64,000 nt of DNA. Source: Rhodococcus sp. KBS0724. GTDB taxonomy: Bacteria > Actinomycetota > Actinomycetes > Mycobacteriales > Mycobacteriaceae. How positions within the stretch are numbered: the stretch's first letter is position 1; every line of letters starts with the position of its first letter. Under the pieces are notes generated by a model, which saw nothing but the letters and a program-made list of their open reading frames with translations, was not told where the DNA came from and ran no database searches. The position numbers and the translations under genes were made by a program. Below, one piece after another: positions 13,296-41,362 of this stretch. The stretch is from the NCBI RefSeq assembly GCF_005938745.2, contig NZ_VCBX02000001.1:3568001-3632000 (forward strand). Reading direction: 5' to 3'.

Positions 13296-14381
13296 ATGAG
13301 TGAATCCGAGTCGGAACCTGAGCGCCCCATCGATATTTTTCGGCGATCCGTCGCGATCATCGAAGAAAATTTGCCCGCCACCTGGTCGCTGTCGACGCAG
13401 CGCTCCCCCGACCTGTCGGAGGCGCCTATCCGCCTCGACCTGCGCTCCCCTGACGGGTCGATCGCCAAATTCGGCGTCTACGCCGCACACGGGGTCCTCA
13501 GCAGTGACGTTCCCGGCATCGCCGACCGCTTCCCCACCGGGCTGACCGGTTTCGTCTGCGCCAAATACCTGTCCGAACCGGTGCGTCGCCAACTCGACGC
13601 CCATGCACTCTCCTACGCCGACGCGACGGGCAACGTCTCGCTGACCGCCGATCGTCCTGCCGTCTGGGTGCGGGGCAGAGGCGCCGACGCCGATCCGTGG
13701 CGCGGCCCCGGACGGCCGTCAGGCCAGCTCGCCGGCGATCCCTCGGCGCGAGTCGTGCGGGCGCTCGCCGATTTTGCCCCGCCGTTGGCGATCACCGCTC
13801 TGGTTCGCTTGGCCGGCGCATCAACAGGCGCGACGTATCGGGTGGTGCAAACCCTCGCGGATCGCGAATTGGTCACCAGACTCCCCCGCGGCGGTATCGC
13901 CGACGTCAACTGGCAGAAAATGCTCCGTGAGTGGGCGCAGGAATCCGTCGCCAAAGCCCCCACACCGCACGGCTTTCACGCTCCGGACGGACTCGAAGCG
14001 CTCTTCGATCAACTCCGCCAACTCAGCGGGCATATCTATGCCGGCACGGCATCTGTCGCCGCCGCACCGTTCGCCAGATACGCACCCACTCAGCGGGCAC
14101 ATTTCCACGCCGACAACGTCGACCAGTTTGCCGATGCGTTGAGTCTGCGCCGCGTCGAGACCGGTGCCGATGTGTGGGTCACCGCTCCCCTGTCACCGTC
14201 GGTGTTCGATCGCATTCTCACCCGCGACGGCATCCGGATCGTGTCGCCGAGCCAGGCCTACGCCGATCTTCTTGTCGGCCCGGATGCCGACGAAGCGGCG
14301 GCCGATCACCTCATGCGCTGGATGATCGAGAACGAATCGCAGTGGCGACGCGCCGCCTCCCCAGCCAAGGATCGACCATAG
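13296..14381 (+). CDS. AbiEi-like winged-helix protein heading the jet operon
   Basis: This 361-residue cytoplasmic protein has an N-terminal region (about 1-140) ending in LSYADATGNVSLTADRPAVWVRGRGAD. That GxxYxDxTGN-type pattern is typical of AbiEi-type antitoxins and related actinobacterial DNA-binding proteins. A winged helix follows at about 150-200 (ARVVRALADF, STGATYRVVQTLADRELVTRLPRG). The C-terminal region ends with RIVSPSQAYADLLVGPDADEAAADHLMRWM, also AbiEi-like. There is no adjacent AbiEii-type nucleotidyltransferase toxin. It lies 36 bases before jetA in the same direction, so it may regulate the condensin operon or belong to the system. A general transcription factor is the main alternative. 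Confidence 0.65.
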   Translation: MSESESEPERPIDIFRRSVAIIEENLPATWSLSTQRSPDLSEAPIRLDLRSPDGSIAKFGVYAAHGVLSSDVPGIADRFPTGLTGFVCAKYLSEPVRRQLDAHALSYADATGNVSLTADRPAVWVRGRGADADPWRGPGRPSGQLAGDPSARVVRALADFAPPLAITALVRLAGASTGATYRVVQTLADRELVTRLPRGGIADVNWQKMLREWAQESVAKAPTPHGFHAPDGLEALFDQLRQLSGHIYAGTASVAAAPFARYAPTQRAHFHADNVDQFADALSLRRVETGADVWVTAPLSPSVFDRILTRDGIRIVSPSQAYADLLVGPDADEAAADHLMRWMIENESQWRRAASPAKDRP

Positions 14382-14417: not shown

Positions 14418-15923
14418 GTGAATGAAACGCATATCGCGGGCGTAGCGACGGCGTACGCGGATACCCATCGACTGAAACTGTTTTCGTTCACGGTCGCCGA
14501 GAAGCGTGCCGAGTACCTGTGGGTACTGCGCGCATTCGACCACGCACGCGCCAATTACACGGTCCTGCTTCATTCGGGAACAGTCGCGCAGATCCTCGAG
14601 AAGATCGGCGGAACGGACCCTGCCGCTCAATTGTCGTCAGCCGAGATCGCGCCGCTGCTCGATCAGCTCCATGTCTGGGAAATCCTCGAACGCAGCTACG
14701 ACGGCACCCGCGCTGCGTCGCTGGCCGAGTACCGCAACCGGCATTTTGTGTATCAGTTCGGTCAGGCCGGCTATCAGGTGTACCGGTCCGTCGAGGACGT
14801 TCTTGCCGCCAGACTCGACAATTCGTCCCTGTCACGACTGGCGCTGGCGGATCTTCTGGCCGACATGTCGGAACTGGCCGAAGCCAATCGAACGGCAGAC
14901 GGCGACCTCATTTTCCGCAAACTCAAGCGCCTCGACTCGACGCTCTCCGACATGGCCGATCGCGCTGCGCACTTCTACCTCACGCTCGGCGATCTTGTTC
15001 GGACGACGGAAGTCACGCCGCAGGCATTCCTGAACCACAAGGACGCCCTGCTGACGCACATGCGTGAGTTCAGCTCCGACCTTGCGCGGTACGCACCAAA
15101 ACTCAAGGAAGCTATCGAGCACGTCGAATCGACGGGTGTCGACCGGATGATCCGGCTGGCTGCGGCCAGCGACGAGCGAGTGTTTGTTCCGATTGCCGAA
15201 CGCGAAGACGACTGGATGGCTCGCTGGCGCGGCTTGACCGCGTGGTTTGTCTCCGCAGAGACCGGGATCAGCGAGTCCGAGCGCCTACGCGAAGGCACCA
15301 TGAGTGCGATTGCCGCAGTGCTCGCCCTGTTGCGCCGCGTCACGGAAACCCGCCGGGGCGGCGTCAGCCGCGAAAGCCAGCTGCGTCACCTAGCCGGATG
15401 GTTTGCCGCGACACCGTCGGAGGACGCGGCTCATGCACTGTTCCAGGCCGTGTTCGACCTCGGTCGCCCGCGCCACCTGTCGATGGTTCATCCGGACGCC
15501 GACATCATTTCTCACCACCGATCCTGGTGGGAGGCACCGCCCGTCGAAATTGCCCGCACCCTGGCCGAAACGGGACGCCCACCGTCACCTGGTCTGCCCA
15601 GCAAGGTCGCTCGCAACGACGGCAGCATCAGACGACTACGCGAAGAACAGCTCGCCGCGCAGCGAACCCGCAGTGCCGCAGCACAATCCCTGGCCACCAA
15701 CGGCGTGTATCAACGTGAGCTCAACGAGCAGGAGACCGAAGTTTTGCTGAGTTTGCTCAATGCCGCACTCACGGCCCGCGTGCCGGTGGTCGGCCGTGTC
15801 AAGAGTTCCACCGGTAGCGAGAACGGGGTGAAACTGACGCTGAGCCCGTCCGACGGTTCCACCACCATCACCACCGCCCGTGGCCGGATGCACCTCGACG
15901 GCATCGAGGTCAGCGTTCGATGA
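14418..15923 (+). CDS. jetA: Wadjet type II JetA (TIGR02677/DUF2397, kleisin-like)
   Basis: This 501-residue protein resembles the TIGR02677 family, the MukF/kleisin-like subunit of type II Wadjet systems that defend against plasmids. The N-terminus KLFSFTVAEKRAEYLWVLRAFDHA (about 20-43) and a central helical region with YLTLGDLVR (about 192-200) are typical. A basic, arginine-rich C-terminal third and the ending TARGRMHLDGIEV fit as well. In known complexes it links the JetC ATPase heads and JetB. GTG start at 14418. Its stop overlaps jetB by four bases (ATGA). No frameshift or truncation was seen. The family name rests on my recall of its motifs and on the gene order. Confidence 0.85.
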   Translation: MNETHIAGVATAYADTHRLKLFSFTVAEKRAEYLWVLRAFDHARANYTVLLHSGTVAQILEKIGGTDPAAQLSSAEIAPLLDQLHVWEILERSYDGTRAASLAEYRNRHFVYQFGQAGYQVYRSVEDVLAARLDNSSLSRLALADLLADMSELAEANRTADGDLIFRKLKRLDSTLSDMADRAAHFYLTLGDLVRTTEVTPQAFLNHKDALLTHMREFSSDLARYAPKLKEAIEHVESTGVDRMIRLAAASDERVFVPIAEREDDWMARWRGLTAWFVSAETGISESERLREGTMSAIAAVLALLRRVTETRRGGVSRESQLRHLAGWFAATPSEDAAHALFQAVFDLGRPRHLSMVHPDADIISHHRSWWEAPPVEIARTLAETGRPPSPGLPSKVARNDGSIRRLREEQLAAQRTRSAAAQSLATNGVYQRELNEQETEVLLSLLNAALTARVPVVGRVKSSTGSENGVKLTLSPSDGSTTITTARGRMHLDGIEVSVR

Positions 15924-17350
15924 GAGCTCGCGAGATCACTCCCCTTGCGCTCGATTCGTATCAGCGCGCCGCGCGGGTCATCCTGTCGAATCACCTCGTC
16001 ACCACGTCGTATCCGGATCGCGCGGCGCTTCCACTGCTGCGGCGGTGGGCTACGGAACTTCGAGACGACCTCCTGGATCTGTTCGGATACCGCCTCGAGG
16101 TCACCGAGACGACGGCCCGGTTGTTCACGGTCTCCGATCGCCTCAACCCGTCGGCGCCCGCCCAGACGGCAACCGAGCGCACGTTCGACCGCACCCGGTA
16201 CTCGTACTTGGCACTGTGCCTGGCTGCCTTGGGTCGCGCCGGCAACCAGATCACGTTGTCGGAGTTGGCAGATCACGTGGCTGCCGACGCCGCACAGGTG
16301 GACGGCGTCGAACTGTCCACTGATCGCGGCGCCGATCGTGACGCGTTTGTCGACGCCGTCGGCTGGCTCGGTGTTCGCGGCGCTATCGCATTGGCCGACG
16401 GAGACGCGAACGGCTGGGCGTCCAATCCCGAAGCGGGGGAAGCACTCTACGACATCGACCGGTCCGTCGTCGTAGCGCTGTTCCGCCCACCGCGCGCTCT
16501 GCAACACCTGCATTCCATTCGCGGGCTCCTGGCTGCCGAAACATCCCAGGCCGCTGAGGAAGACGGAGTTCCCGTGGACGCCAAGGCAATCGGTCGACGG
16601 GTGCGCCGGGCTCTCGTCGAACGTCCGGTGGTGCTGGCCGGCGAACTGGATCAGCATGAACTGATCGCGTTGGCCCAACCCAAGACCGCGTCGGACGTCG
16701 AAATGCTGACCGGGCTGGTTGCCGAGCGCCGGGCCGAGGGAATCGCGATGATCGATCCCACCGGACGCCTGTCGGACGTGCGTTTTCCCAGCACCGGCAC
16801 GATCGCCCAGGTCGCGTTGCTGCTGGCCGGGGAAATCGCCGATCGAATCCTCGATGTCGACGCGCCGGAACTGCCGAAACTGCCGCTCCCCCTCGAGTCC
16901 GACGACCATTTGATCGAGCAACTCGATGCGGCGATCCCCGAGGCCGGAATCTTCGAGGACCTTGCGGACGAGGACGCCGAGCCGGTCGAACCCGCTTCGG
17001 AGCCTGCTGATCCCCCGGAACCGGCAACGTATCCCCTGATCGACGACACGTGGCTGGCGGACAAGATCACCGAATTGGTGGATCAGTTCGGCCGGACGTT
17101 TGCGGCGCAATGGCAGGCGGATCACAACGGACTGCGGAAACACTCGCTCGGCCTGCTGCAGCGATTACGCCTGACGCACGCAGTTCCCGGCGGAGTTCTG
17201 GTTCTGCCCGTACTCGCGCGCTACCGCGACGTCGTGGTCAATGTCCGCGAACGCGATCCCCTCATCGATTTTGCGGTCGACAACTCCGCACCCGAATCCA
17301 GTTCCGAATTTTCCGGCAGCACAGAAGAACCAGAGGTAGAAAACGCATGA
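15920..17350 (+). CDS. jetB: Wadjet type II JetB (TIGR02678/DUF2398, MukE-like)
   Basis: This 476-residue protein resembles the TIGR02678 family, the winged-helix MukE/KITE-like subunit that binds the kleisin JetA. Recognisable segments are LLRRWATELRDDLLDLFGYRLEVTETTARLF (about 40-70) and FDRTRYSYLALCLAALGRAGNQITLSELADHV (about 89-120). The C-terminal LLQRLRLTHAVPGGVLVLPVLARYRDV is typical. An acidic, proline-rich linker (about 340-375, many E, D and P) interrupts the second half. The start and stop both overlap neighbours by four bases (ATGA), so jetA-jetB-jetC are translationally coupled and probably made in set ratios. Confidence 0.85.
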   Translation: MRAREITPLALDSYQRAARVILSNHLVTTSYPDRAALPLLRRWATELRDDLLDLFGYRLEVTETTARLFTVSDRLNPSAPAQTATERTFDRTRYSYLALCLAALGRAGNQITLSELADHVAADAAQVDGVELSTDRGADRDAFVDAVGWLGVRGAIALADGDANGWASNPEAGEALYDIDRSVVVALFRPPRALQHLHSIRGLLAAETSQAAEEDGVPVDAKAIGRRVRRALVERPVVLAGELDQHELIALAQPKTASDVEMLTGLVAERRAEGIAMIDPTGRLSDVRFPSTGTIAQVALLLAGEIADRILDVDAPELPKLPLPLESDDHLIEQLDAAIPEAGIFEDLADEDAEPVEPASEPADPPEPATYPLIDDTWLADKITELVDQFGRTFAAQWQADHNGLRKHSLGLLQRLRLTHAVPGGVLVLPVLARYRDVVVNVRERDPLIDFAVDNSAPESSSEFSGSTEEPEVENA

Positions 17351-20300
17351 ACAGCGCCCGTTTCCGGCCTACCCGGGCCGGCATCATCAACCTCTGGGAT
17401 TACCGCGACCAGGAATTCTCCTTCGCCGACGGCCGACTGGTCCTGCGCGGCCCCAACGGCTCGGGCAAGACCAAAGCCCTCGAGGTGCTGTTCCCGTTCG
17501 TGTTCGACGGCCGCATCGAGCCGCGTCGCCTCAATCCGTTTGCCGGCGAAGAACGCACCATGAAGTCGAATCTGCTCTACCGCGGACAGGACACCGCGCA
17601 CTCGTACGTGTGGATGGAGTTCTGCCGCGGCTCGCTCGACGACCCCGAAGCCGTCACCGTCGGCATCGGCATGCGTGCGAGCCGCACCAACGACAAAGTC
17701 ACCCGCTGGTACTTCGTCGCCGACGGCCGGGTGGGTGTCGACTTCTCGCTGATCGGCAGCGACGATCGTCCGCTGACAAAAAAGCAGTTGGCCGAGCAAC
17801 TGGGCAGTGACGCGATCACGGACCGTCCACTGGACTACCGCACCGCCATCGACGCGCGCATGTTCGGCCTCGGCGTGCAGCGTTACGACCAGCTGATCAA
17901 TCTGATCCTGACGCTGCGCCGTCCACAGCTCGCGAAGAACCTTGACCCGAAGGGCCTTTCGCAGGCTCTCACCGACGGTCTGCGTCCGCTCGACGACCAA
18001 CTGGTGCTCGAAGCTGCGCGCTCGTTCAGCGACATGGAAGAAGTCGGCCGCGCCCTCGAGGGGCTGGCCGCTGCCGACGGGGCCGCGCAGACTTTCATCG
18101 GCGTCTACACCAAGTATCTGCGTCAGCAGTCGCGGGGTGAGATCGAACAGGTCGGCGCTCGACTGGCTGCGGTCACCAAAGGTGTTGCCGCCATGGACGA
18201 GTCCGCCGTTGCCCAGTTGCGGAGCCGAGAAGCCCGCGCCGCCGCCGAAGAACGATTCAATGCCGCCGAGCAGGCCCTCGATCACGCCCGCGCCAATGTC
18301 GAAGCGCTACAACGCTCCAGCGCGTACGAAGGCAAGCAGCAGCTCGACGACCTCGCCCAAGCAGTGGCAACGCTGAAACTGTCCACCGAGCAGCAAGCCG
18401 ACAAGTCCCGCAAGGCGCAGGCAACATTGGCGCAGCGCGGCGACGAAGCCGACAAGGCCACCGCGTCGGTACGCCGCGCCGCCGAAGCACTCTCGCGGGC
18501 CGAGGACGAACTGCGCGTCGGCGCCGAAGACGCCGGCATCGTCTGGACACCGCTACCCGACGGCTCCCGCAGCGACCAGATCACCGCAGCCGTGCGCGGC
18601 CACGCCGAAGAGCGCGACGGCGACGTTCGTGTTGTGCGGGCCGCCCTCGCCACTGTCGAAAAGGCCACCACCGAGCGGACCCGCGCCGAGAACTCCTCAC
18701 GTCGTGGCCAGGAACTCCTCGAATCCGCCAAAGCTGCGGTCCTCGAAGGTGAAGCCGCCGTCGAACTGGCTCGCAGCGAATGTGCCACCGGCCTTCGCTC
18801 GTGGTGGACAGGGCATTCGGAACGCTATGCCGCTGCCGGCGCCGATACCTCACTGTTCGAGGCGTTGGACGGAGCCCTGTCGGCGGTCGGTGACGAAGAC
18901 GCCCCGACGTTGGCGGCCGTGCTCGCCGAACACACCGAGTCCGGAATCGAGGCCCTACGGGAGCGTCGACGCTCTGCGGAAGCGGAAATCGTCGCCTCCC
19001 GCGCCTCCGTCACGGCACTGAAGGCCGAACGCAAAGCCGTTTCGGCCGAACACGACGACGCTCCGCCGGCATTCCACGCCCGCACCGACAGCCGCAAGGA
19101 CCAGCCGGGCGCTCCCTTCTGGAGCCTCGTTCGATTCGCCGAGTCCGTCGAACCCGAGGTCGCCACGGGAATCGAATCCGCACTGCAGGCCGCAAACATG
19201 TTGGACGGCTGGGTAGTCCCCGGTGAGCAGCTTCCGGAATTCGTCAGCGAGCAATTCCTCACGGCGCTCCCGGCGAAACAGCGTCCCAAGGGACGTACGC
19301 TCGCGGACGTCCTCGAGGTCGAAGGCAACTCCGACGTCCCCGACGCACAGGTCCAGGGAATTCTCGCCTCGATCAGCCTGGTCGAGAGCCCGGACACCAC
19401 CACGGCCGCCGTGGCGATCGGCGTCGACGGCCGATTCTGGCAGGGTGTTGTCCACGGACGACACGTCAAGACCGACGCCGAGTACATCGGCACCACGGCC
19501 CGCGCGCGGCGCCGCGCGGCCCGTATCACCGAGATCGACGCAGCGCTGGGCGAACTCGACGCGGCAATCGACGCCGGCACGGCTCTGGTGGCGCAGACCA
19601 ACGAGCAGTTGACTCAACTTGCGGCCGCCGCAAAGGAACTACCCAAGACCGGCTCGATTCTGCGTGCGCTCAAGGCCGTCGCCGAGTCCGCGGGCGCATT
19701 GCGTACGCGGTCCGAGGCAACCGAGAGCGCACAGCGCGAACTCGACGCGGCGATAGCGGATCTCGCGGCCAAGGAAAAGCAGTTGCGCGCTACGGCGTCG
19801 ACGCACCGGACCCCGCACGTCGGCCGCGAACTGGATTCATTGGCAGCGGCGATCCGTCACTTCGAAAAGCAAGGCGACGTGGCCCTGCGATGCCGACGCG
19901 AGCACGCCAAAGAGGTGGAACTCGAACGCGAATCGAGCGATCGTCTCGACGAGTCACGCACCAACGCCGAGGAATTTGCCGAAGAAGCAGCGATCGCGGA
20001 AGAGAGCCTGCTCCAACAGGTCCAACGCCTGGAAACCTTGCGCGACACCCTCGGCGCAAGTGCCGAACAAATCGATCTCGATCTCGCCAAGGCGCGCGCC
20101 AAGATCGAGGAATGCAAAGTCGACCAACGCGCCGCCCGTAAGGCCTACGACGCGGCCGTGCTCCACATCGGCACCGCTGAAGGCGCGTACAACACCGCCG
20201 TCGAGACCCTGCGACACACCCTCACCGAAACACGGAGCGATGCAGAGCAACTCGCGCCCTATGCACGACCCGATCTGCTGGAACTGCTCGGCATCACCGA

Positions 20301-21522
20301 GCCCCTGAGCTGGCCGGCCAGTTCCGCTGCCTGGATGAGCCCCGATCAACTCGTCTACCGGATCCAGAACGAGGACCGGACCGACGACGCCCCGCACCCA
20401 CCGGTACTCCCCGAAGACGTGGACAAGCTGTACCGGGCGCTCGACGCGGCAACGTCGACGGTTCGCGTCACCGACGGCGCCCGCAAGGCCACCCGCACGG
20501 CTCTGACGTCCGCGCTGCAGGAATTCGACGCCCAGCTTGCTGCCGCCGGCCAGGACTACCGCCTGCAGTGGGACGCACCGGACGGACTCACCGTCGTCCG
20601 CGTGCAGGACGAGCAGGGACACTCCTCGATCGGCGAGTTCGCGACCCGGATCCACGAAGCGCGCGGCGATCAGGAACAGCTGCTCACCGAATCCGAACGC
20701 CGCATTCTCGAAGATGCCTTGCTCACCGGCCTGGCCCAGCAGATTCACGAGCGCACCGTCGACGCCCGCGAACTCATCGCGCAGATGGGCACCGAAATGC
20801 GTGAGCGGCACATGTCGTCCGGCAACACCATCGGCGTCCACTGGGTTCTGGCCGACAATCTCGACGAGAGCTCGCGGGCCATCTCCAAACTGCTCGATCG
20901 AGATGCGTCGGCGCTGGGCGTGGACGAGTTGGCAACCCTGCGCGCACATTTTGCGACGCAGATTCGCACTGCCCGCGCGGCGCACCCCGAGCGGTCGTAC
21001 CCGGAGATCCTGTCGTCGGCACTCGACTACCGGCAGTGGCGGTTCTTCTCCTTCACCCTCATCAGCGGCGAAGGCAAGGAAGACAGGCTCACCGTCGCCC
21101 GGCACAGCGCACTCTCCGGCGGCGAGCAGTCGGTATCGCTGCACCTGCCACTCTTCGCGGCTGCGCACGTCATGCTCGATTCCGCCGATCCGCACGCGCC
21201 GCGACTCCTCGCACTCGACGAGGCCTTTGCCGGCGTCGACGACAACGGTCGAAGCGAATTGTTGGGATTGAGCGTCCAGTTCGATCTGGACCTCTTCATG
21301 ACGGGGTACGACCTGTGGATCACGTACGCCGACGTACCGGGGTGCGCGCACTACGACCTGGCGCACTCCACGGCCGAACAAGCCGTCAGCGCCGCGCTAC
21401 TGGTGTGGTCGAACGGTGAACTGCTCGCCGAACACGACGGCACGGATTTGGCGCGAGCACTCGGATCTCCGCTGCGCCGCAGGGTGCCCACCCCCGCCGA
21501 GGGTGCACTCGACTACGCCTAG
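17347..21522 (+). CDS. jetC: Wadjet type II JetC (TIGR02680, SMC/MukB-like ATPase)
   Basis: This 1391-residue SMC-like ATPase resembles the TIGR02680 family. The N-terminal head has Walker A GPNGSGKT at 35-42. Long coiled-coil segments, rich in Ala, Glu and Arg, run about 260-560 and 790-960, separated by a hinge-like region (about 570-780). The C-terminal head has the ABC signature LSGGEQS near 1255 and Walker B LLALDEAFAGVDD near 1285. All ATPase motifs are intact. In Wadjet such subunits extrude DNA loops and JetD cuts small circles. The ATG at 17347 overlaps jetB; the longer open frame is a shadow. No jetD follows: the stop is three bases before a palindromic repeat. Confidence 0.9.
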   Translation: MNSARFRPTRAGIINLWDYRDQEFSFADGRLVLRGPNGSGKTKALEVLFPFVFDGRIEPRRLNPFAGEERTMKSNLLYRGQDTAHSYVWMEFCRGSLDDPEAVTVGIGMRASRTNDKVTRWYFVADGRVGVDFSLIGSDDRPLTKKQLAEQLGSDAITDRPLDYRTAIDARMFGLGVQRYDQLINLILTLRRPQLAKNLDPKGLSQALTDGLRPLDDQLVLEAARSFSDMEEVGRALEGLAAADGAAQTFIGVYTKYLRQQSRGEIEQVGARLAAVTKGVAAMDESAVAQLRSREARAAAEERFNAAEQALDHARANVEALQRSSAYEGKQQLDDLAQAVATLKLSTEQQADKSRKAQATLAQRGDEADKATASVRRAAEALSRAEDELRVGAEDAGIVWTPLPDGSRSDQITAAVRGHAEERDGDVRVVRAALATVEKATTERTRAENSSRRGQELLESAKAAVLEGEAAVELARSECATGLRSWWTGHSERYAAAGADTSLFEALDGALSAVGDEDAPTLAAVLAEHTESGIEALRERRRSAEAEIVASRASVTALKAERKAVSAEHDDAPPAFHARTDSRKDQPGAPFWSLVRFAESVEPEVATGIESALQAANMLDGWVVPGEQLPEFVSEQFLTALPAKQRPKGRTLADVLEVEGNSDVPDAQVQGILASISLVESPDTTTAAVAIGVDGRFWQGVVHGRHVKTDAEYIGTTARARRRAARITEIDAALGELDAAIDAGTALVAQTNEQLTQLAAAAKELPKTGSILRALKAVAESAGALRTRSEATESAQRELDAAIADLAAKEKQLRATASTHRTPHVGRELDSLAAAIRHFEKQGDVALRCRREHAKEVELERESSDRLDESRTNAEEFAEEAAIAEESLLQQVQRLETLRDTLGASAEQIDLDLAKARAKIEECKVDQRAARKAYDAAVLHIGTAEGAYNTAVETLRHTLTETRSDAEQLAPYARPDLLELLGITEPLSWPASSAAWMSPDQLVYRIQNEDRTDDAPHPPVLPEDVDKLYRALDAATSTVRVTDGARKATRTALTSALQEFDAQLAAAGQDYRLQWDAPDGLTVVRVQDEQGHSSIGEFATRIHEARGDQEQLLTESERRILEDALLTGLAQQIHERTVDARELIAQMGTEMRERHMSSGNTIGVHWVLADNLDESSRAISKLLDRDASALGVDELATLRAHFATQIRTARAAHPERSYPEILSSALDYRQWRFFSFTLISGEGKEDRLTVARHSALSGGEQSVSLHLPLFAAAHVMLDSADPHAPRLLALDEAFAGVDDNGRSELLGLSVQFDLDLFMTGYDLWITYADVPGCAHYDLAHSTAEQAVSAALLVWSNGELLAEHDGTDLARALGSPLRRRVPTPAEGALDYA

Positions 21523-21524
21523 CA

Positions 21525-21568
21525 CTGTGCGCCTTTGTTAACCGCCCGCGGTTAACAAAGGCGCAGAG
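21525..21568. repeat. 44-bp palindromic repeat, copy 1
   Basis: Arms 21525-21545 and 21548-21568 pair with a two-base CC centre and one arm mismatch. It starts three bases after the jetC stop. Each arm runs CTGTGCGCCTTTGTTAAC and then CGC. The same element occurs near 22073/23397 (split by an IS) and at 38333. All copies lie just after gene ends, so it may act as a bidirectional terminator or a REP-like mobile palindrome. Confidence 0.9.
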
Positions 21569-21663
21569 CATGTCGTCTCCGAATGGGAAGCACCCAGGAT
21601 GGGTATCACGCCGATACCCGCGATTCTCAACCATGGGCGCAAATCCCGAGAGACGGAGGCGAC

Positions 21664-22065
21664 ATGAAGAAAACCATCGCGACAATCATGATCGTGGGCG
21701 CAGTCTCGACAGTGTGCGCCTGCGGAAGCGACGATGACGCGCAGAATCAGGACAACGGTCGCGCCAGTCAAGTAACGATGAAAATGCCTGCCGGGACGTC
21801 GACGGGCGATATGAGCGCTGTGGATCGGGGGAAACTCACGGCATTTGTCGTGGCGTTCCGCACCCGCTACCCGGATCTTTCACGGGATCGAGACGACCAG
21901 GACATCAAGGAAATCGTCCTCGACACATGTGACGACATTGCCGATGGCGACACCAGACAACAAGTCAGCGACGAAATACGCGATCAGGCCGAGCATAACG
22001 GCCTTGTCCCGACGCAAGCGCAAATCGACGAGATCTACGACATGGTCATACCGGCGTGCCCGTGA
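21664..22065 (+). CDS. Small putative lipoprotein
   Basis: This 133-residue protein has a short signal peptide (MKKTIATIMIVGAVSTVCAC) with a plausible lipobox VCAC, the lipidated cysteine being residue 20. The mature part is acidic, with a low-complexity stretch followed by a helical domain. That domain carries two cysteines (LDTCDDI and the C-terminal PACP) that could pair as in DUF732-type actinobacterial secreted proteins; this is only a resemblance. The ATG at 21664 follows a GAGACGGAGG ribosome site. It lies between jetC and the IS element and occupies the position where jetD would normally be, but is unrelated to that nuclease. Confidence 0.65.
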   Translation: MKKTIATIMIVGAVSTVCACGSDDDAQNQDNGRASQVTMKMPAGTSTGDMSAVDRGKLTAFVVAFRTRYPDLSRDRDDQDIKEIVLDTCDDIADGDTRQQVSDEIRDQAEHNGLVPTQAQIDEIYDMVIPACP

Positions 22066-22072
22066 AAACACG

Positions 22073-22100
22073 CTGTGCGCCTTTGTCAACCGCCCGCGGT
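22073..22100. repeat. 44-bp palindromic repeat, copy 2, left part
   Basis: This is the first 28 bases of the palindrome, interrupted by the IS. The last 12 bases (22089-22100) are repeated at 23397-23408 as the target duplication. Joined to the right part it would restore a perfect 44-bp palindrome carrying TTGTCAAC in the arm instead of TTGTTAAC. Confidence 0.9.
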
Positions 22101-23396
22101 TGTGTGAAGTGTCAGGACATCGCGGACACTTTCATGTGTCATGACATCCCGGACGGTTTGGTGGTGTCCACGATCGGTGGATGACACGCCGCCGAAAGAT
22201 GCTCAGCCCTGCTGTCCTGGTCGCGATCACAGAACGAGCGGCTGGCCGCAAGGTCAACATCGCAGCCCTGTGCCGCGAGGAGAACATCAGCACCAGCTGG
22301 TTCTACGAACAACTCGGCCGGTTCACCAAAGGCGGCTTGGAGGCGTTGACACCGCACAGCACGGCACCCCACACACGACCCTCGACCACCCCACCCGGGG
22401 TGGTCGAGGCCATCGTGCGGGCCCGCAAAGACCTCCACGACGAAGGTAGTGACAACGGACCGTTCTACATTCGGCAACGACTCATCGCCGACGCAGAAAC
22501 GATCATTCCGTCCGAGTCGACGATCTACCGTCACCTCAAACAACGCGGGCAGATCCTCGCGCAACCGAACAAACGCCCCCACACCTACCGTCGATTCGAA
22601 TTCCCGGCACCGAACGCGTGCTGGCAGATCGACGGCACCCACATCTACCTCGCCAACGGCACCCGAGTCACCGTCGTCGAGATCATCGACGACCACTCCC
22701 GCGTCTGTATCGCATCACATGCGGCAGTCTCCGAATCGTTCGAATCTGCTTGGGCAGCCTTACAATCCGGCTTCGAAGAGTATCGATATCCGACGATGAT
22801 CCTCTCCGACAACGGCACCGCGTTCTCCGGTCGACGGCGAGGGACGATCTCCGAACTCGAACGTGAACTCGCCGCGCCCGGGATCGTCGCGATTTCCTCC
22901 TCAGTCGCGCATCCGCAAACCTGTGGGAAGGTCGAACGCCACCACCAGACGATGAAGAAATGGCTTGCCGCGCGCCCGGCCGCGGCGTCGCTGCCGCAAC
23001 TGCAGATCCTGCTCGACGAGTACCGCCGTTTCTACAACAACCGGCCGCAGAAAACACTCGGCGGCGCCACCCCCAGCACGAGGTGGGCAGCGACGCCGCC
23101 GGCCGCACCCCATCCCACAGCGATGGTGGCAGCGGGGACGAGTACTCGCCCCAGTTCTCCGACCGGGGTGATCAAAATCCACGGTCTCTCGATCCACCTC
23201 GGTCGAGTATGGAAGAACCGCGAGACCGTCGTGTTCTGGCAGGGCGAGCGTTACGCGGTGTTCGTCGACGACGAACTCGCACGCGAGCTCGTCGTCGACC
23301 GCACCCACACCCGGCAACTTCTCAACCCACGAAAATCGTGAAGTGTCCGCGATGTCCTGACACATATGTGTCCACTAAGTCATGACACATCACACA
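22101..23396 (+). mobile_element. IS481-type insertion sequence, complete
   Basis: This 1296-bp element has imperfect terminal inverted repeats: the left end begins TGTGTGAAGTGTCAGGACAT and the right end, read inward, TGTGTGATGTGTCATGACTT (17 of 20 match). It is flanked by a 12-bp direct repeat ACCGCCCGCGGT (22089-22100 and 23397-23408). The exact boundary is ambiguous by two to four bases, because the palindromic target resembles the IS ends. Four copies of a 19-bp motif sit at the ends (22109-22127, 22136-22154, 23345-23363, 23370-23388), the right pair inverted; they are probable transposase binding sites. It encodes one intact transposase. Confidence 0.9.
22181..23341 (+). CDS. IS481-type DDE transposase
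   Basis: This 386-residue transposase has an N-terminal helix-turn-helix region (about 14-55, NIAALCREENISTSWFYEQL), a linker, and an integrase (rve) core. Candidate catalytic residues are Asp151 (QIDGTH), Asp210 (LSDNGTAF) and Glu252 (GKVERHH). The second-to-third spacing is a little longer than the usual 35. The C-terminus has RRFYNNRPQKTLGGATP, typical of the family, and then a 95-residue tail. The gene fills most of the element and has no frameshift, so the element may be active. Confidence 0.92.
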   Translation: MTRRRKMLSPAVLVAITERAAGRKVNIAALCREENISTSWFYEQLGRFTKGGLEALTPHSTAPHTRPSTTPPGVVEAIVRARKDLHDEGSDNGPFYIRQRLIADAETIIPSESTIYRHLKQRGQILAQPNKRPHTYRRFEFPAPNACWQIDGTHIYLANGTRVTVVEIIDDHSRVCIASHAAVSESFESAWAALQSGFEEYRYPTMILSDNGTAFSGRRRGTISELERELAAPGIVAISSSVAHPQTCGKVERHHQTMKKWLAARPAAASLPQLQILLDEYRRFYNNRPQKTLGGATPSTRWAATPPAAPHPTAMVAAGTSTRPSSPTGVIKIHGLSIHLGRVWKNRETVVFWQGERYAVFVDDELARELVVDRTHTRQLLNPRKS

Positions 23397-23424
23397 ACCG
23401 CCCGCGGTTGACAAAGGCGCACAG
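23397..23424. repeat. 44-bp palindromic repeat, copy 2, right part
   Basis: These are the last 28 bases of the IS-interrupted palindrome, beginning with the 12-bp target duplication and ending GACAAAGGCGCACAG. It lies eight bases beyond the 3' end of mshC. Confidence 0.9.
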
Positions 23425-23432
23425 CAGATGGT

Positions 23433-24674
23433 TCAGCGCAGCGAAATTCCCAGCAGAGCGTCGACGGCATCGGCGAACTCGCCTGGTGCCTGTGCGTCGG
23501 ATCCCCCACCTTCGATTGCGCGGCGTGCCCAACCGTCGAGGGCGTCCAGAGCCTTGGGGGTGTCGAGATCGTCGGCGAGATGCTGACGCAGACGGGCGAC
23601 GGTGTCGGTGGCGGACGCAGCGGAACTCAAGGCCGCTGCCTCACGCCAGACCTTCAGACGCGCCTGGGCGTCCTCGAGGACCTGTTCGGTCCAGGCCCGG
23701 TCCTGGCGGTAGTGGCCGGAGAGCAGTCCGAGACGGATCGCTGCGGGGTCGACTCCCTCGCCACGAAGTTTCGAGACGAACACCAAGTTGCCGCGACTCT
23801 TCGACATCTTCTCGCCGTCCAGACCGATCATGCCGGTGTGGACGTAGTGACGCGCAAATCGACGATCACCCGTGGCACATTCGGCGTGCGCCGCCGAGAA
23901 CTCGTGGTGCGGGAAGATGAGGTCGCTGCCGCCGCCCTGGACGTCGAAGCCGGAGCCGATGCGGTTGAGTGCGATGGCCGCGCACTCGATGTGCCAGCCG
24001 GGGCGACCCGGACCGAACGGTGACGGCCATGACGGCTCACCCGGACGGACGGCCCGCCACACAAGCGCGTCGAGTGGATTGCGCTTGCCGGCGCGATCCG
24101 GATCGCCGCCGCGCTCGGCGAAGAACTTCTCCATCGTCTCGCGGTCGTAGCCGGATTCGTAGCCGAACTGCTCGGTGGCGTCGGCCCGGAAGTAGACGTC
24201 GGGGAACTCGGCGTCGTCGACGATGTACGCCGCGCCGGATGCGACGAACTTCTCGACGAGTTCGACAACTTCGTTGATCGATTCGACGGCACCGATGTAG
24301 TCCTTGGGCGGAAGCACGCGCAGTGCCTCCATGTCTTCCCGGAACAGCACTGTCTCGCGCATCCCGAGAACCATCCAGTCTTCGCCGTCGCGGTTGGCGC
24401 GTTCGAAGAGCGGATCATCCACGTCTGTCACGTTCTGGACATAGTGAACGTCGTGTCCGGCGTCGCGCCAGATGCGGTTCACGAGGTCGAAAGTGAGGTA
24501 CGTGGCGGCGTGCCCAAGATGGGTGGCGTCGTACGGTGTTATGCCACAGACGTACATCGTGGCGGTCTTCCCGGGGGTAACCGGACGAACCTGACGGTCG
24601 GCTGTGTCGTACAGCCGCAACGGCGGCCCCTGACCAGGTACGGACGGGAGTGCGGTATCGGACCAAGACTGCAT
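23433..24674 (-). CDS. mshC: Mycothiol ligase: cysteine to GlcN-inositol
   Basis: MshC joins cysteine to glucosaminyl-inositol using ATP, the third dedicated step of mycothiol synthesis, and is restricted to actinobacteria. The 413 residues follow the cysteinyl-tRNA synthetase fold: zinc ligand Cys43 in [20 protein letters not shown]-like motif at 52-55, [14 protein letters not shown] with a second zinc cysteine (about 225-235), and KMSKS near 288-292. Length and N-terminus distinguish it from CysS, which is longer and has an anticodon-binding domain. It lies in the actinobacterial mshC-SCO1664-DUF3090-phosphatase neighbourhood, here interrupted by the MMPL/MarR pair. Confidence 0.95.
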
Positions 24675-38332: not shown

Positions 38333-38376
38333 CTGTGCGCCTTTGTTAACCGCGGGCGGTTAACAAAGGCGCACAG
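38333..38376. repeat. 44-bp palindromic repeat, copy 3
   Basis: This is a perfect palindrome with 21-base arms (38333-38353, 38356-38376) and GG centre; copies 1 and 2 have CC. It lies four bases after pyrD and four bases before the convergent PEBP gene end. It could terminate both genes. Confidence 0.92.
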
Positions 38377-40435: not shown

Positions 40436-40551
40436 TTCCCAGCACCGAGAAATCGGGGCCGAGTCCGAGTGGCGGAATGGCAGACGCGCTAGCTTGAGGT
40501 GCTAGTGTCCTATTAACGGACGTGGGGGTTCAAGTCCCCCCTCGGACACTC
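40424..40551. repeat. 128-bp perfect direct repeat, copy 1 (contains tRNA)
   Basis: This block is identical to 41235-41362 over 128 bases and covers the -10 region, leader and whole tRNA-Leu. Flanks on both sides differ. The repeat distance is 811 bases and encloses one secreted-protein gene. Confidence 0.9.
40463..40548 (+). tRNA. tRNA-Leu (anticodon GAG), copy 1
   Basis: The acceptor stem GTCCGAG pairs with CTCGGAC, the anticodon stem is CTAGC/GCTAG with loop TTGAGGT (anticodon GAG, reading CUC/CUU), a long class II variable arm follows (TCC/GGA), and the T arm is GGGGG-TTCAAGT-CCCCC. 86 bases with discriminator A; CCA is not encoded. Confidence 0.95.
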
Positions 40552-41246: not shown

Positions 41247-41362
41247 TTCCCAGCACCGAGAAATCGGGGCCGAGTCCGAGTGGCGGAATGGCAGACGCGC
41301 TAGCTTGAGGTGCTAGTGTCCTATTAACGGACGTGGGGGTTCAAGTCCCCCCTCGGACACTC
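41235..41362. repeat. 128-bp perfect direct repeat, copy 2 (contains tRNA)
   Basis: This is the second copy of the tRNA-bearing block at 40424-40551, without a single difference, pointing to recent duplication or gene conversion. Confidence 0.9.
41274..41359 (+). tRNA. tRNA-Leu (anticodon GAG), copy 2
   Basis: Identical in all 86 bases to the gene at 40463-40548, with the same GAG anticodon and no encoded CCA. Confidence 0.95.

Follow-up and report, generated by a model that had tools for sequence, protein, structure and literature searches.

The type II Wadjet locus of Rhodococcus sp. KBS0724 carries intact genes for the JetABC condensin complex without a gene for the JetD nuclease. This JetD-less state is a trait of the lineage and not the recent decay of one locus. 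The locus lies in a stretch of 64,000 nucleotides, called the window below (contig NZ_VCBX02000001.1, positions 3,568,001 to 3,632,000). Judged from their codon substitutions, the jetABC genes of JetD-less loci are under strong purifying selection. JetABC is probably, though by no means certainly, a resident second condensin with a chromosomal or general role that would no longer depend on DNA cutting.

The locus consists of three genes on the plus strand. The first, jetA (14418–15923), encodes a 501-amino-acid kleisin-type subunit (DUF2397/TIGR02677). It is followed by jetB (15920–17350), encoding a 476-amino-acid KITE-type subunit (DUF2398/TIGR02678), and jetC (17347–21522), encoding a 1391-amino-acid SMC/MukB-like ATPase (TIGR02680). 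The kleisin and KITE labels for JetA and JetB are taken from passages of PMC10586767. Both junctions are ATGA overlaps, jetA/jetB at 15920 and jetB/jetC at 17347. The three genes form one type II Wadjet operon, with every protein above the curated cut-off of its family: JetA scores 246.6 bits (cut-off 165.85), JetC 723.8 bits (cut-off 462.85), and JetB 126.1 bits, barely above its cut-off of 124.65. Pfam matches are to DUF2397, DUF2398, and SbcC_Walker_B, and PADLOC assigns JetA2, JetB2, and JetC2. With the PADLOC models, JetC reaches 1430 bits for JetC2 versus 34.6 for the best JetC1 model, which places the genes in type II by sequence and outside the MukB/MksB-like branch of type I.

JetC contains the Walker A motif GPNGSGKT at residue 35, the signature LSGGE at 1256, and the Walker B motif LLALDEAF at 1287, and a sequence search matches it to the solved JetC chain 9qe0_A (E = 5.1e-72). 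Profiles built from 12 relatives match the solved JetA chain 9qe0_E at E = 1.2e-20 and the solved JetB chain 9qe0_D at E = 0.011. The ATPase motifs, the long coil, and the kleisin and KITE partners are those of an SMC/MukB-like condensin, with the match to the JetB chain being weak. An earlier reading of the DNA, made from the sequence only, had described JetA, JetB, and JetC as full length, coupled by ATGA, and retaining their ATPase motifs; frames, family models, and motif positions confirm this, and the assignment to TIGR02677, TIGR02678, and TIGR02680 stands. A canonical SMC (structural maintenance of chromosomes) protein is encoded in the same genome (977 bits), so JetABC would be a second condensin.

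The genome searched for JetD comprises 7.25 Mb in three contigs and is rated 100% complete. TIGR02679 gave no match there or in 14 control genomes, a profile without a positive control among the sequences searched. PF09664 (DUF2399) also gave no match in this genome or in the 14 controls; the profile is judged to work because it finds JetD in 2 of 28 genomes of the genus and 22 of 201 of the family. PF09983 (JetD_C) found nothing in the genome and did match its Corynebacterium glutamicum control. With these three families searched genome-wide and tblastn run at the locus with 12 JetD proteins, no JetD was detected. The absence of JetD beside jetABC, claimed by the sequence-only reading, is thereby confirmed, and the three profiles found no JetD homolog elsewhere in the genome. 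Its suggestion of a nuclease encoded elsewhere fails for nucleases of the JetD families; an unrelated nuclease would be outside the reach of these profiles.

The JetD-less arrangement is common among relatives. JetB was found in 26 of the 28 genomes of the genus; the two without it are G007, which has high completeness, and G019, which is 75% complete. In the family sample, TIGR02678 matches 84 of 201 genomes (75 above the cut-off), and 20 of the 22 genomes with DUF2399 are above the cut-off (3 of the 22 are weak). Loci were collected from the genus (25) and the family (80), which with the window gives 106; counts of loci refer to this fetched set, since some TIGR02678 matches (e.g., in G069 and G199, and some second copies) fall outside it. 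A phmmer score above 1000 for JetC defines the lineage, which holds 86 of the 106 loci and spans Rhodococcus, Rhodococcoides, Prescottella, Antrihabitans, Nocardia, and their kin. The other 20 are divergent Wadjets whose best blocks are 24–42% identical. JetD is present in 12 of the 86 lineage loci and in 7 of the 20 divergent Wadjets.

A scan of named genomes with a JetB alignment yielded 227 relatives, of which the best 80 were kept; JetD was found in 22 of these 80. Among the 58 without it, 6 are uninformative, 5 ending within jetC and 1 having 443 bases after it. Named relatives with JetD include Rhodococcoides fascians, R. kyotonense JCM 23211, R. yunnanensis and its kin, R. tibetensis, and Antrihabitans stalactiti. 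JetD is missing at the locus in R. globerulus, whose JetB is 99% identical to that of the window, as well as in R. erythropolis, R. qingshengii, R. opacus, R. koreensis, R. wratislaviensis, R. jostii NBRC 16295, and Prescottella equi. Nocardia loci that extend past jetC also have no JetD at the locus.

Some relatives encode a JetD elsewhere, generally as part of another system. Four genomes with a JetD-less lineage locus (G090, G142, G163, G181) also have a second, divergent Wadjet, and their DUF2399 JetD goes with it. PF09983 matches 7 of the 28 genomes of the genus; in G015 the match is the type II JetD itself, and the other six (G004, G005, G006, G011, G017, G025) are JetD-less at the jetABC locus studied. 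A type I JetC adjoins the PF09983 match in G005, G006, G011, and G025, and a second match in G011 adjoins a type III JetC, so the matches in these four genomes belong to separate Wadjets. In G004, the single frame tried gave no match. The possibility that a type I or type III JetD serves JetABC from elsewhere was rejected, as PF09983 has no match in the KBS0724 genome and the matches in relatives belong to separate Wadjets in four of six cases.

The locus is marked by mshC (mycothiol ligase), a conserved convergent neighbor that lies outside the complex. In the window mshC is at 23433–24674 on the minus strand (TIGR03447, 740 bits). It lies within 2.5 kb of jetC in 41 of the 86 lineage loci. 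In the 10 JetD-encoding loci with mshC in view, the gap between the two genes is 1224–1285 bp and is occupied by jetD; in 20 JetD-less loci it is 10–125 bp. The remaining JetD-less loci have other sequence in the interval or mshC beyond view. In the window the equivalent site (21523–21582) holds a palindrome and no recognizable remnant of jetD, and tblastn with the 12 lineage JetDs against the JetD-less loci gave no match at E ≤ 0.01. The JetD-less G010 and its JetD-encoding sister G024 share 7 bases after the jetC stop, too few to be relied on as a deletion scar. A replacement gene in the slot was also considered and rejected: none is common to the listed lineage loci, where jetC abuts mshC or the intervening genes vary by clade. 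Three neighboring genes of the lineage that were scanned are a nitrite/sulfite-reductase-like gene, a BTAD/AAA regulator, and one without a Pfam match.

JetD-less loci are also found in other families, as indicated by a sample of the class in which 62 of 296 genomes have TIGR02680 above the cut-off. Of these, 46 have DUF2399 somewhere and 16 do not, 4 of the 16 being in the family of the window. In the JetD-less loci L239–L248, from other actinobacterial families, an SMC_N/RecF-type ATPase of 676–731 amino acids follows jetC (5 of the 10 loci listed). Such loci may represent JetABC cores that have exchanged their partner. No conserved partner stood out in L249–L258 (7 of the 10 loci listed). 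In L246, JetA matches only the C-terminal part of DUF2397, and the genes after the ATPase are FAS1-like dehydratase and MurB-like genes.

The conserved ATPase makes partner exchange conceivable, and with it a Wadjet that still cleaves plasmids because an unrelated nuclease, encoded elsewhere and acting in trans with JetABC, has replaced JetD. The profiles used would be blind to such a protein. However, no lineage-wide gene fills the jetD slot among the listed loci and TIGR02679, DUF2399, and JetD_C are all without matches in the genome, and this explanation is considered quite unlikely.

A tree of JetABC was built with FastTree from 82 of the 86 lineage loci and 5 outgroup rows, leaving out L032, L039, L118, and L133. 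On this tree, the presence of JetD needs at least six changes, whatever their direction. Under a Dollo model, with one origin and no regain, there are 15 losses among the 77 rows that descend from the last ancestor shared by the JetD-encoding loci, a count that leaves out five JetD-less rows branching outside that ancestor. The window belongs to a clade of nine rows that are all JetD-less, and another JetD-less clade spans 19 rows.

The proteins themselves help to orient this history. All 12 JetDs of the lineage group in a single clade, separate from 6 JetDs of divergent Wadjets (support 100/99). JetC and JetD identities are correlated across 66 pairs (r = 0.983; 0 of 2000 Mantel permutations), with 8 of the 12 sequences coming from one genus. 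Distances of JetC and JetA track those of MshC (r = 0.85 and 0.82, 53 loci), which is consistent with vertical inheritance. The single JetD clade and its codivergence with JetC make an ancestral jetABCD with repeated loss of jetD the simplest history. Several independent gains of JetD are disfavored by the same two observations and by the shared slot.

The genes left behind appear intact. A full-length jetC with all three ATPase motifs is present in 70 of the 74 JetD-less loci and in all 12 loci with JetD (Walker B counted as LL[AG]LDEAF, the LLGLDEAF variant occurring in 20 rows). Of the four exceptions, L032 and L118 run off their contigs, and the jetC frames of L039 and L133 are broken. L039 (genome G004) and L171 (R. 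jostii NBRC 16295) show the same break, in one draft genome.

Ratios of nonsynonymous to synonymous substitution rates (dN/dS) were estimated by the Nei–Gojobori method (NG86) for 10 JetD-less pairs and three pairs with JetD; the values are rough, because pairs share rows and some dS values are near or above 1. Across the JetD-less pairs, dN/dS is 0.011–0.084 for jetA, 0.025–0.132 for jetB, and 0.031–0.144 for jetC, falling to 0.009–0.047 in the JetC head (the first 200 and last 220 codons). In the same pairs mshC gives 0.030–0.075. The pairs with JetD give 0.054–0.063 for jetC, 0.072–0.142 for JetD, and 0.076–0.364 for jetB. The intact frames and motifs, together with dN/dS, bear out the sequence-only reading's argument for selection on the ABC part.

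These data also bear on the idea of a decaying relic, in which jetD has gone and jetABC is drifting toward loss. It could draw on the 2 broken jetC frames among 74 JetD-less loci and on the lack of JetB in G007. Against it are the full-length, motif-bearing jetC genes, the contig ends that account for two of the four exceptions, the low dN/dS of the JetC head, and the JetD-less clades of 19 and 9 rows. Taken across the lineage, the evidence already goes against decay, and the relic explanation is highly improbable. The sequence-only reading had offered a recently decayed anti-plasmid system as one option; this does not survive, as the JetD-less state is common to the whole nine-row clade and jetABC shows no decay in frames, motifs, or dN/dS.

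No surface that JetD might have bound could be singled out as lost. Regional divergence profiles do not clearly separate JetD-less from JetD-encoding clades, and no region stands out as relaxed. JetA has 4, JetB 2, and JetC 9 columns that are invariant in the 12 rows with JetD and below 60% in those without, against control means of 2.2, 1.4, and 7.0. These counts are uninformative, and the idea of a lost JetD-binding surface was set aside.

The similar divergence of JetABC in the two groups suggests that substrate recognition need not have changed, a point that fits an alternative in which plasmids are controlled without a nuclease. JetABC would sense small circles by total loop extrusion and hold them in check by compacting or silencing them or by blocking their partition. 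Within Wadjet, JetABC serves as the sensor, and the eukaryotic Smc5/6 complex restricts circular extrachromosomal DNA by silencing it, according to passages of PMC10586767; Smc5/6 is not a Jet protein, and the comparison is limited to the mode of action. On the other side, PMC10123090 reports that the copy number of pBHK18 in C. glutamicum rises upon loss of mksB, mksF, or mksG, each of them, and presence in 26 of 28 genomes of the genus is judged to exceed what would be expected for defense. Nuclease-free plasmid control is regarded as unlikely, if conceivable. By analogy, and with the same reserve, JetABC in Rhodococcus, Prescottella, and Nocardia could be a speculative counterpart of Smc5/6, a nuclease-free guardian that silences or traps circles and for which jetD would be an optional, discardable add-on.

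For the favored second condensin, we infer complex assembly, loop extrusion, and a chromosomal role. An ancestral type II Wadjet, jetABCD, would have lost jetD by deletion while the JetABC core persisted. JetA as the kleisin and JetB as the KITE subunit would close a JetC dimer that hydrolyzes ATP. The complex would then move along DNA or extrude loops, as is thought for JetABC of Wadjet, with no cutting afterward. Because no cutting would follow this handling of DNA, the function under selection would be nonnucleolytic, most likely in nucleoid organization or segregation as with MksBEF of Pseudomonas. The presence of JetB in nearly all genomes of the genus and the purifying selection give indirect support to a chromosome-organizing role.

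Known systems provide points of comparison. The locus resembles type II Wadjet (JetABCD) in its gene order and coupling, in nearly full-length matches of JetA, JetB, and JetC to the models, and in the matches of JetC and JetA to 9qe0 chains; it differs in that no JetD was detected at the locus or in the genome and in that JetC and JetA divergence tracks the housekeeping gene mshC. MksBEF of P. aeruginosa, described in PMC7485682 as a MukB-like condensin acting on the chromosome, is likewise a three-subunit condensin alongside a canonical SMC. It belongs to another branch of the superfamily, whereas the Rhodococcus genes, with their predicted role, are of type II (DUF2397, DUF2398, TIGR02680). 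The sequence-only reading is supported in describing the condensin half as complete but lacking JetD and in likening it to an MksBEF that has no MksG. MksBEFG of C. glutamicum is also a second condensin-like complex in an actinobacterium with SMC–ScpAB, but it has an active MksG nuclease (DUF3322 and DUF2220) and acts on plasmids only, according to sections of PMC7083940 and PMC10123090.

Several observations weigh against a resident condensin descended from jetABCD. The type I MksBEFG of C. glutamicum has no role in chromosome organization according to PMC10123090 and PMC7083940, though it keeps its nuclease. The missing JetB in G007 indicates that the complex is dispensable there. The JetD-less L039 and L133 have broken jetC frames, possibly draft errors. 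Parsimony by itself cannot separate loss of jetD from gain. In addition, the JetD of Antrihabitans locus L108 branches outside the other JetDs (weakly, 83/69), unlike its place in the JetABC tree, and this conflict leaves room for some transfer of jetD.

The region around the locus shows additional features. The order downstream of jetC was as the sequence-only reading gave it: a palindrome, a short open reading frame (ORF), an IS481-like transposase, and mshC on the minus strand. The palindrome, 38 bp long and resembling a terminator or a repetitive extragenic palindrome (REP), occurs at 21528–21565 and again at 38336–38373, with none expected by shuffling; the copy after jetC could be read as a two-way terminator. 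A third, diverged copy is split (22073–22101 and 23396–23426) by the IS481-like insertion sequence, which has perfect 23-bp inverted repeats and a transposase under the curated cut-off. Between the palindrome copies is a short ORF, lipoprotein-like by eye (21583–22065, likely start 21664). It is matched in one other compared locus, L030 of G003, where the insertion sequence was not seen, and it has the look of a recent insertion separating jetC from mshC. Upstream, 36 bp before jetA, 13296–14381 encodes a 361-amino-acid protein with a weak IclR-type helix-turn-helix and matches in 33 other compared loci. It is probably a neighbor and not a subunit, since another gene intervenes before jetA in several Rhodococcus loci. 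Farther away, two identical tRNA-Leu(gag) genes (40463–40549 and 41274–41360) lie 811 bp apart; 44 of 50 upstream bases also match and the downstream flanks differ. A tandem duplication or an integration site is possible.

Searches of open-licence PubMed Central (PMC) papers turned up no title or opening of an abstract that describes JetABC of type II without JetD as characteristic of a lineage. An EptABCD system of Mycobacterium smegmatis was reportedly the subject of work by Panas et al. in 2014. According to PMC12915292 (Table 4), DefenseFinder called Wadjet_II on the strength of just three proteins in R. erythropolis NI86/21, with accessions not matched to this locus. Wadjet is reported in 42% of actinobacterial genomes in an excerpt of PMC10482375. 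Defense-finding software can list JetD-less loci as Wadjet, and surveys that score JetABC in this way may overstate plasmid defense. With the arrangement this common among relatives, the motor probably has another job, such as chromosome organization. Natural experiments at one locus are available in R. tibetensis and G010 and in the JetD-encoding Rhodococcoides clade and the JetD-less R. kyotonense KB10. These relatives with and without jetD make the role of a JetD-less JetABC directly testable.

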